A stretch of 64,000 bases of DNA. Origin: an uncultured Porphyromonadaceae bacterium (GTDB lineage Bacteria; Bacteroidota; Bacteroidia; Bacteroidales; Muribaculaceae). The notes below the pieces were generated by a model. That model had not been told where the DNA came from. It saw nothing but the letters and a program-made list of their open reading frames with translations, and ran no database searches. Each line of letters starts with the position of its first letter. Position 1 is the first letter of the stretch. The stretch covers positions 1 to 64,000 of the forward strand of contig CAMWMK010000005.1 of the NCBI GenBank assembly GCA_947175295.1, given 5' to 3'. Shown piece by piece: positions 24,432 to 29,221 of the stretch. Position numbers and translations under genes: made by a program.

Positions 24432-25826
24432 ATGTCTAAATTATTTGTATTCGGTATTGGAGGCACGGGATCTCGTGTATTGAGATCATTAACAATGATG
24501 TTAGCTTCGGGGGTCAAGGCCGGAGTTGACGAGGTTGTGCCGATTATAATAGATCCTGACACTTCAAATGCAGATTTGACACGGACAGTAAGTTTGCTTA
24601 ACAAGTATTCCGCAATACGTAGTAATCTACAATTCAGTGCCGATAATGAAAGTCTCTTTTTCCGCACTGAAATAAAACAGATATTACCAAATTATACTCT
24701 TCTAATCAATGATACTGATGATAAGTCCTTTCAACAGTTCATTGACTATGCCTCCATGTCAAAGGCTAATCAATCTTTGACTAAGATGCTTTTCTCGGAT
24801 AAGAATTTACAATCATCAATGGAGGTTGGATTCAAGGGAAATCCGAATATAGGAAGTGTTGTTCTAAATCAAATTGCACACTCCTCAGACTTCGAAACAT
24901 TTGCTAATGATTTCAGTGACGGTGATCGGATATTTATCATTAGTTCAATATTTGGTGGCACAGGTGCAAGTGGTTTCCCTTTATTGTTAAAAACGCTGCG
25001 CACAGGTAGTGGTTTTGCAAATCACGATATAATTAATCGTGCAATAATTGGAGCGATTACCATACTGCCATATTTTAAGCTAAAACAAGATGAGGATAGT
25101 GAAATAGATTCATCTACATTTATATCCAAGACAAAATCAGCGCTTGCCTACTATGAGAGCAACATTAGTAAGAATGGTTCTATAGATGCGTTATATTATC
25201 TTGCGGATGATGTAGCAAAGACCTATGAGAACCATGAAGGAGGATCGTCTCAACAAAATGATGCACACTTAATAGAATTTCTTGGAGCGACTGCAATTAT
25301 TGACTTTTCTAATAGTAACTATATGGGGACTTCTAATATGGAACTGGGTATTAAGGATGGTGCAGATACAGTATCGTTCAACTCGTTCTATAATAGGATG
25401 CGAAATATGCTCTATAATCCTATGGTACAGTTTACAATAATGGCGAATGCGCTCACACATAAAGTTAGTATGTATAGATCGAATTCCTTTAACGCGAATA
25501 AGGGTAATTTCGAAGACTTATATAATGGTATGTTTTTCAATGACCTTACCGATTTCTTCCGCAAATATCACGAGTGGTTGACAGAAATGCGCGAGAATAA
25601 GCGTTCATTATATCTATTTAACCTCTCTTGCGGAGATAAACCATTCGATCTAGTTGAAGGAGTGAAGCCCAAAAGAATCCTAAGCAAATTTTCAGACTAT
25701 AATCTTGTTACTGATCGGCTTAATTCCGCAATTCGCAATTGTAAGAGCAATGGCAAGGAGAATAAATTCCTTGAAATGTTCTATCTTGGCACTCAGAAAC
25801 TTGTAAAAGAAAAGTTAAGCAACTAA
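24432..25826 (+). CDS. Tubulin/FtsZ-like GTPase (Tubulin_2-like; cassette gene 3)
   Basis: N-terminal LFVFGIGGTGSRVLRSL; tubulin signature-like SSIFGGTGASGFP (about 24946-24975). Confidence 0.75.
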   Translation: MSKLFVFGIGGTGSRVLRSLTMMLASGVKAGVDEVVPIIIDPDTSNADLTRTVSLLNKYSAIRSNLQFSADNESLFFRTEIKQILPNYTLLINDTDDKSFQQFIDYASMSKANQSLTKMLFSDKNLQSSMEVGFKGNPNIGSVVLNQIAHSSDFETFANDFSDGDRIFIISSIFGGTGASGFPLLLKTLRTGSGFANHDIINRAIIGAITILPYFKLKQDEDSEIDSSTFISKTKSALAYYESNISKNGSIDALYYLADDVAKTYENHEGGSSQQNDAHLIEFLGATAIIDFSNSNYMGTSNMELGIKDGADTVSFNSFYNRMRNMLYNPMVQFTIMANALTHKVSMYRSNSFNANKGNFEDLYNGMFFNDLTDFFRKYHEWLTEMRENKRSLYLFNLSCGDKPFDLVEGVKPKRILSKFSDYNLVTDRLNSAIRNCKSNGKENKFLEMFYLGTQKLVKEKLSN

Positions 25827-25831
25827 ACATT

Positions 25832-28800: not shown

Positions 28801-29221
28801 AGACTCAACTTGTAAGGGAGGTATAGTAGGTGTTGAAGATGAAGATTGCGGAGATAAGGCTATTATATTCAAAAGTGATGGTTCCGGTGTTATCAGTAAT
28901 AATGATACATATTCTTCAATATCTGATGAGTATAAAGTAAATACTATCAAGGCTGTAGAGCAATTCTTTAGATTCGTCTTTGAGGAGATGAACAGTGTTT
29001 TTAACTTTGACAAGTATTTCGGAGTCAATGCCTCATCATTTATCTTGGCGAAGGAGGCGGCTACGAAGGATCTCACGACCTTTCTTGATAAGGGCATAAT
29101 CCAACGTAGAGAAGAAACAGAAGCAGACGACGTTATAGAAGAAACCTTTTTCTTCTACCCTATTAAGGGAGCTCTTCAGGCTATGTCAGATGCAATCTTT
29201 AACTCATTAAGAAATCAGTAA
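25832..29221 (+). CDS. Large actin/Hsp70-fold ATPase with about 580-aa N-terminal region (cassette gene 4)
   Basis: Phosphate-1 FAVDLGTSNTHIEY (about 27570-27610), phosphate-2 VNVDIGGGTTDIAF (about 28205-28246), adenosine-like ISFSGNGSKVI (about 28645-28680). Confidence 0.8.
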   Translation: MSKIFRLYKEGSSTYEDWNSSPAFPYNSASRDTIEDPDGASARHEITSIPSPFARIDLIKTAFKEVCKPDKKNRKIELDGNTIFHKMVSDTLDVAEIFFNLDKYIGKIEVIKWDPSLMLTELEQSYSTGHRYLADALKKYMKSDARTYNFDKLKNIYLLNYVEGPDELNIIGATSPATLFFSNANDLSYVNDIFFGQDKPFDSEYQPLYKRDFEFVKYLFALRKSIHNFAGLFPEVETYMNATYKAVEDQMKKKELNNVTSVILDDFESIEVKDLQQNDLVEVLGYTLYKKSHRPMLTTCEFIIKSSKQSENLPLVLPVEAGNRYSQLQYTTDKWGNTNRASYKENESDLSKRKLPFDGSVHPYLTIGDFLEDTIIRVPHTLNTVNYFDAHIKIEKPELAFLLPIKPLLFRYFSIEEFRGKMPDGKPMVKMKLLAGDSVHITLRIPIKGDGKISYVEYSRVYYNNSSVDIQNNQGNIAELRFTGFIMPQVQFKDEVDALYNVSCVQSSNSKIEFVFYKNAERLNLPSKISRNKDQEILLRADNYLVKGKNFDFIQVRNNTYMGILVPIFENQCNIDIFEFAVDLGTSNTHIEYRKGNESPKVFSFTHKDRQLCEMFIPHKNEFGYIEDLQAESELIEKDFIPAEVGNGDYKFPTRTVLSCSKSVDWTKRIDPFTLVNLPFTYDKRADLPYNNLKYNIKWGNGEDLRIMESYVRTLMLMIRNKVLQNNGDLTKTKITWFYPISMPPKRLRYLKTTWDAAYREYFGDGSTNSMTESYAPIQYFFQRYSTATSLVNVDIGGGTTDIAFAKDKVITHVTSFRFASNALFENSFSNLDEQNGIVDYHKGNILRLLEEKNLSELIRVFNSTNNSRPSNMASFLFTLRDNTLPKVANIDEKYVDFNYILQEDEDFKIVFIVFYTSIIYHIAQITKSLGLEVPRHISFSGNGSKVIRVITTDTKILAKYTKLIFEKVLDRPYGKELELLGLDKDSNPKDSTCKGGIVGVEDEDCGDKAIIFKSDGSGVISNNDTYSSISDEYKVNTIKAVEQFFRFVFEEMNSVFNFDKYFGVNASSFILAKEAATKDLTTFLDKGIIQRREETEADDVIEETFFFYPIKGALQAMSDAIFNSLRNQ

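Follow-up and report, generated by a model that had tools for sequence, protein, structure and literature searches.

Within the window (the entire 64,000-nucleotide stretch of DNA analyzed here, from an uncultured Porphyromonadaceae bacterium of the gut), genes for a predicted tubulin-fold GTPase and a predicted actin-fold ATPase lie back to back among nine closely spaced co-directional genes (22760-33855) that also encode membrane proteins, lipoproteins, a MotA/MotB-like pair and a protease (Table 1). The two folds had been proposed in a first-pass annotation of the sequence; the reading frames and the 5-nt gap between them proved to be exactly as given there, and the motifs it quoted were located, namely, SSIFGGTGASGFP at residues 171-183 of the tubulin-like protein, and DLGTSNTHIEY (residues 583-593), VDIGGGTTDIAF and SFSGNGSKVI in the actin-like protein. 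The motor subunits, the MIDAS-motif lipoprotein, the variable hydrolase slot and the location of the operon on an island were left out of that annotation. A promoter scan with the pattern TTTG-N(18-22)-TANNTTTG gave no match in the leader region between 22 kb and the first gene.

Table 1. Predicted genes of the operon and the surrounding inserted segment, in window coordinates. Counts refer to 105 homologous loci; several are too low because some contigs stop early.
Feature	Coordinates	Strand	Details
Inserted/variable chromosomal segment carrying the operon	21093..39808	.	18.7 kb
Periplasmic lipoprotein with MIDAS-like (E)xSxS motif	22760..23965	+	401 aa; lipobox SLFSC; homolog upstream in 97/105 loci
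Small multi-pass membrane protein	23969..24427	+	152 aa; precedes the tubulin gene in 95/105 loci
Tubulin/FtsZ-superfamily GTPase (predicted), unique C-terminal half	24432..25826	+	464 aa; PF13809/PF00091
Actin/Hsp70-fold ATPase (predicted)	25832..29221	+	1129 aa; ~570-aa unique N-terminal region, C-terminal actin-fold domain
One-TM coiled-coil protein, possible adaptor	29221..30147	+	308 aa; lipobox VVGC; coiled coil following TM ~88-112
MotA/TolQ/ZorA-like channel subunit with long cytoplasmic coiled-coil tail	30157..31851	+	564 aa; 76/105 loci
MotB/ZorB-like subunit: TM helix with channel Asp, OmpA-like peptidoglycan-binding domain	31863..32498	+	211 aa; 66/105 loci
Trypsin/HtrA-like protease lipoprotein (variable hydrolase slot)	32504..33277	+	PF13365 2e-24; 35/105 loci
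Lipoprotein, last gene of the run	33286..33855	+	189 aa; lipobox FFIVSC; small gap

The assignment of the first protein of the pair to the tubulin superfamily is upheld by several lines of evidence. Both phosphate loops are invariant in 70 aligned homologs (G10, G11 and G13 of T1; F174, G175, G176, T177, G178 and A179 of T4), with four plasmid-derived rows excluded from this set and from that of the actin-like proteins. The Pfam matches of the window protein itself are weak, albeit superfamily-correct (Tubulin_2, 6e-6; Tubulin, 2e-5), and fall slightly short of the Pfam cut-offs (26.1 bits for Tubulin_2, PF13809, against the curated 27); among the relatives, 62 of 70 match Tubulin and 60 of 70 match Tubulin_2, the latter at E<=0.01. 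The best result of a PDB sequence search, CetZ with an E-value of 0.019, is too weak on its own, and structure prediction was therefore used, the tubulin-like and actin-like proteins each being modeled with AlphaFold as a monomer. For the tubulin-like model (mean pLDDT 90.6), the Foldseek search that the first-pass annotation had called for returned FtsZ, CetZ and tubulin as the top PDB folds (E 2e-5), in partial alignments (TM 0.27-0.39), mostly of ~260-290 columns, that cover only the N-terminal GTPase half. Neither the Foldseek results nor the alignment identified a T7 catalytic (synergy) loop or the tubulin C-terminal domain, so filament formation by this protein is not to be presumed; E304, conserved in at least 90% of the homologs, follows the putative H7 and is not assignable as T7. 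The protein is folded throughout its 464 residues, with no long coiled-coil helix, and thus lacks two traits of FtsZl1, an extended coiled coil and a helical C-terminal domain. The genome encodes its own FtsZ at another place.

The actin fold of the second protein is similarly borne out. In 76 homologs, D583, G585 and T586 (phosphate-1), E773 (connect-1), D795, G797, G798 and D802 (phosphate-2) and G942 (adenosine) are all invariant, and the model (mean pLDDT 88.7) retrieves MreB (E 2.6e-9), DnaK and Arp as the top folds in Foldseek. The T4 loop and the actin-fold nucleotide site, the features whose absence would have spoken against the two folds, are thus both in place. Pfam yields only weak FtsA/MreB/Ppx-like fragments around the phosphate-2 motif, and comparison of the sequence profile with MreB gives 5.6e-5. 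The protein was rejected as an FtsA (PF14450, 16 bits against a cut-off of 31.8; 1129 aa against ~420 aa) and as a member of the SrfB family (PF07520), for which there was no genome match at E<=10. Within the N-terminal stretch (window 25832-26020), residues ~45-62 (ITSIPSPFARIDLIKTAF) are nearly invariant even though residues 1-50 are predicted to be disordered in the monomer (pLDDT <50); the ~45-62 segment is a candidate site for the docking of another protein.

Conserved pairing in other genomes, the lack of which the first-pass annotation would have taken as a refutation, is also borne out: an actin-like gene directly follows the tubulin-like gene in 105 of 105 homologous loci, with a median gap of 5 nt. 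These loci come from genomes of the family, GTDB genomes and plasmids and were recruited with the tubulin protein alone, so that the pairing was not built into the sample. In the opposite direction, a survey of 250 Bacteroidota genomes found full-length matches to the actin-like protein exclusively next to the tubulin gene; the sixth tubulin carrier in this set (locus L128) is adjoined by a more divergent actin-like gene. The actin profile gave apparent matches in 226 of the 250 genomes; most of these cover just ~40-110 residues at the phosphate-2 motif of proteins of ~420-470 aa, which are probably FtsA, and they were discounted. The pairwise distances of the tubulin-like and actin-like proteins are strongly correlated (mirror-tree Spearman r=0.92, against 0.53-0.78 for the other component pairs). 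Taken together with the strict adjacency, this correlation makes the co-assembly or reciprocal control suggested by the first-pass annotation plausible. The further remark that such a pairing is rare stands only in part: the accessory pair is widespread, and ftsA and ftsZ are the classical neighboring genes for an actin-fold and a tubulin-fold protein, but the distribution of the pair is indeed patchy, with the tubulin gene present in 36 of 150 genomes of the family and in 6 of 250 Bacteroidota genomes. Cultured carriers include Parabacteroides distasonis An897, Leyella stercorea and species of Flavobacterium and Winogradskyella.

Several variants of the locus were observed. A divergent Bacteroidota branch (L128:990-13107, L042 and L044) encodes actin-like proteins of ~1300 aa and lacks the MotA/MotB motor; in L128, the pair is followed by a protein of ~480 aa, three proteins with TerD domains (PF02342, down to 1e-70) and one OmpA protein. 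In the cyanobacterial plasmids L002, L003 and L004, the genes for the MIDAS-motif lipoprotein, the small protein, the tubulin and the actin-like protein are arranged in a near-identical order, with the lipoprotein gene reversed in L004; a MotA/MotB pair is not recognizable in these plasmids, where TM2-domain or coiled-coil proteins come next. In eight loci from Flavobacteriia (L075, L076, L077, L083, L086, L087, L098 and L112), two consecutive reading frames (~100-150 and 430-465 aa) stand in for the MotA-like protein; the channel subunit may be split there, or an additional membrane protein may be encoded. A Sulfuricurvum MAG encodes, two genes past the actin-like gene, a lipoprotein that matches the Hedgehog N-terminal signaling domain (L103:16571-17548; PF01085, 2.5e-13). 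The copies in two loci labeled Oscillibacter and Acetatifactor (L046 and L081) are Bacteroidales-like, with 81% identity for L046, and these loci are probably mis-binned MAG contigs rather than evidence of transfer to Firmicutes.

The operon was acquired recently by a horizontal route. In the genome of a sister species of the same genus (G402, locus L153), ~1.07 kb takes the place of the 18.7-kb segment, and the sequence on either side aligns with the window, ending at 21092 and resuming at 39809, at identities of 83.7% and 78.5%; in a single search of 150 genomes of the family, the tubulin gene was found in none of the 8 congeners. The GC content is 36.1% in the operon and 39.9% in the segment, compared to 53.6% in the window outside it. 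Integrases account for 9 of 103 upstream neighbor genes of the homologous loci, and some of the neighbors are defense genes (type II restriction-modification, DpdF, a Mokosh-like system and several PADLOC candidates), although these are sparse, raw counts. A prophage origin is unsupported, with 0 matches in 50,697 phage records; in IMG/VR, a relative was found in only four contigs, which may be proviruses. The inserted segment also carries a gene for a protein combining Schlafen AlbA_2 and HATPase_c_4 domains (window 35145-36857), preceded by one for a small HTH-like protein (window 34685-34993).

The remaining genes encode predicted membrane proteins and lipoproteins. The MotB-like protein is closest, among solved structures, to ZorB (8vvn_B, 1.5e-14; 8qyd_F, 2.2e-9), followed by flagellar MotB (1.6e-6), matches the PADLOC ZorB profile (6.7e-14) and retains an invariant channel aspartate, D15, in 43 homologs. 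Its MotA-like companion matches the PADLOC ZorA profile (2.8e-7), includes ZorA (8vvn_C) among its PDB matches and conserves, at 90% or more, the core residues that mark TolQ, MotA and ZorA, namely, Pro, Gly-Thr, Ser and Thr (P108, GLxGT, A165-M166-xx-S169 and T176); PF01618 was matched in 14 of 51 members. Both the PADLOC and the PDB profiles recover a ZorA/ZorB-like motor pair, with the match to ZorA being weak and the scores under the NCBIfam cut-offs. In the MIDAS-motif lipoprotein, the residues E-N-S-G-S-M and a later Asp are conserved in at least 90% of 96 homologs. Alignment with true vWA domains using hhalign spans the whole domain but is weak (E 7e-4, probability 26%), and neither Pfam (vWA matches in 0 of 54 members) nor the PDB returned a match; the conserved motif is suggestive of a divergent vWA domain, a weak assignment. 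The small membrane protein matched no known family in profile searches. Homologs of the one-TM coiled-coil protein were recorded in 90 of 105 loci, a count that may include spurious matches, and are weakly conserved.

The gene past the motor is variable. Of the 58 loci in which a MotB-like gene is followed by a sufficient length of sequence, 29 encode a trypsin-like protease and 12 encode a small aspartyl protease, and no locus has the two together; DNA/RNA non-specific endonucleases (NucA, PF01223) and staphylococcal-nuclease (SNase) proteins also occupy this slot, with NucA undercounted owing to the strict motif used in the effector tally. The triad of the trypsin-like protease (H115, D149 and S214) and its lipobox cysteine C24 are conserved in 35 homologs. 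The lipoprotein encoded last in the run has no homolog in the other loci compared. Swappable hydrolases following a fixed core would be typical of conflict systems, by analogy with those described previously (e.g. PMC7159879).

Several known systems resemble the operon in part. Operons encoding FtsZl1 (Tubulin_2, PF13809) together with vWA and OmpA proteins have been described by Makarova and Koonin (2010; PMC2875224), with a role in membrane remodeling proposed; as far as the main text of that work goes, FtsZl1 shares with the window protein a divergent tubulin-superfamily GTPase domain, operonic association with OmpA-domain and, putatively, vWA-type proteins, distinctness from the FtsZ of the cell and a patchy distribution, with Bacteroides caccae in the published alignment. 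In the same account, however, an extended coiled coil, a helical C-terminal domain and P-loop GTPase/kinase partners are typical of FtsZl1, and the main text names no actin/Hsp70 or MotA partner, although the lineage-specific families it mentions may include them (PMC2875224). The window tubulin is a borderline FtsZl1 relative devoid of the coiled-coil architecture. The GTPase-centric conflict systems of Kaur et al. (2020; PMC7159879), found mainly in firmicutes and actinobacteria, include tubulin and HSP70 as non-overlapping themes; they share with the operon tubulin homologs, HSP70-fold proteins, putatively vWA domains, membrane or periplasmic parts and a proposed conflict role involving assembling NTPases, and sister systems use trypsin and NucA effectors. 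These systems are defined by TRAFAC GTPases and GAP1, whereas the window operon joins both folds, has a ZorAB-like motor and occurs mainly in Bacteroidota; family profile searches detected no GTPase besides tubulin among its proteins and hence no TRAFAC GTPase, and no GAP1 turned up in these general searches either. Zorya has in common with the operon the MotA/MotB-type pair, the long ZorA-type tail, the conserved channel Asp and the OmpA-type domain but differs in that the operon, without ZorC, ZorD and ZorE, has tubulin- and actin-fold NTPases as cytoplasmic partners and lipoprotein hydrolases in place of cytoplasmic nucleases. Because the two folds adjoin, a TRAFAC GTPase and ZorC/D/E are missing and a ZorAB-like motor is present, the operon is set apart from these systems and is probably a conflict-type NTPase system outside them; an earlier description is possible, given that our literature search covered few subscription papers and preprints.

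The reading that we favor, at about even chances, is that of a conflict system, most likely directed against phages, which is horizontally mobile and spans the envelope and in which the pair forms the cytoplasmic core. The invariable pairing with the flanking order kept, the correlated divergence of the two proteins, a motor nearest to ZorAB with its invariant channel Asp, the swappable protease slot, the island location and the integrases and some defense genes next to homologs all argue for it. On the other side, the defense genes near homologs are sparse, the vWA assignment is weak, no cytoplasmic nuclease or helicase effector comparable to ZorC/D/E was found among the operon proteins, and the motor is not universal, being missing from the TerD/OmpA branch of Bacteroidota and not recognizable in the cyanobacterial plasmids. 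The best reading of the mode of action, by analogy, is a Zorya-like one, with the tubulin/actin core replacing ZorC/D/E. The anti-phage activity of Zorya depends on peptidoglycan binding by ZorB as well as on the tail of ZorA and the channel Asp, and envelope disturbance has been proposed to open its motor (PMC11890865). In the system considered here, the MotB/ZorB-like subunit would bind peptidoglycan, and damage to or penetration of the envelope would lead to ion flow through the MotA/ZorA-like ring; the long coiled-coil tail of the latter and the one-TM adaptor might then relay the signal to the GTPase and the ATPase, which would bind one another and change their assembly state with NTP, perhaps as filaments. 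The NTPase assembly would in turn gate both the membrane proteins and the MIDAS-motif lipoprotein of the periplasm, and it would license the swappable periplasmic hydrolase, a trypsin or aspartyl protease and sometimes a nuclease.

A different, rather unlikely possibility is that the operon encodes a membrane-remodeling cytoskeleton resembling FtsZ-FtsA, in which filaments of the tubulin-like protein would be tethered or regulated at the membrane by the actin-like protein, with the motor and the MIDAS-motif lipoprotein coupling them to the cell wall in a housekeeping-type envelope task (vesiculation, shape or repair). The strict pairing, the correlated divergence and the ftsA-ftsZ precedent are compatible with such a role, and the same has been proposed for the operons that combine FtsZl1 with vWA and OmpA proteins (PMC2875224). 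However, a patchy, horizontally acquired operon that is missing from congeners hardly fits a housekeeping task; the variable slot for a secreted protease or nuclease is unlike morphogenesis genes, and the genome has a separate FtsZ. The window pair also departs from FtsZ-FtsA, with which it shares the adjacency of the two folds, in the divergence of both folds, in the 1129-aa actin-fold partner with its ~570-aa extra region, in the association with a motor and in belonging to a mobile accessory operon.

The three TerD-domain proteins and the OmpA protein that the divergent branch has instead of the motor, along with the HtrA-like protease and the lipoproteins, would suit a Ter-related envelope-stress module that detects damage or metals and strengthens the envelope, with phage as at most one trigger; we consider this improbable, given that the motor branch, of which the window is a member, has no TerD and that variable nucleases misfit a role in stress only. 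More doubtful still is an ion-driven machine for secretion, gliding or surface transport akin to GldLM, with a motor that would drive a periplasmic process and NTPases that would hold the ring in place from the cytoplasmic side. The literature on 5:2 motors suggests that a cytoskeletal protein, as yet unidentified, may serve as an anchor for GldL (PMC9389320), but the motor of the operon is related to ZorAB/MotAB rather than to GldLM, and the operon includes no gene for a substrate or an outer-membrane channel. That the two folds adjoin by accident and act separately is refuted at the genomic level by the unbroken adjacency, the 5-nt median gap and the correlated distances, and can be practically dismissed.

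To our knowledge, outside FtsZ-FtsA, tubulin-fold and actin-fold proteins have rarely been shown to act as one obligate unit, and we know of no rotary 5:2 motor that drives cytoskeletal assembly. Returning to the conflict system, its more specific form, which we hold tentatively and at somewhat less than even chances, is that of a Zorya-like rotary motor coupled, mechanically or allosterically, to a composite tubulin and actin assembly, such that a breach of the envelope would be sensed and the swappable protease or nuclease released. If this is the case, the operon would encode a previously undescribed defense machine that combines an ion motor with a cytoskeleton. A compact mobile operon with tubulin, actin and motor genes, present in cultured carriers, makes the action of a motor on a cytoskeletal polymer testable and also opens the way to asking what the long tails of Zorya-like motors do.
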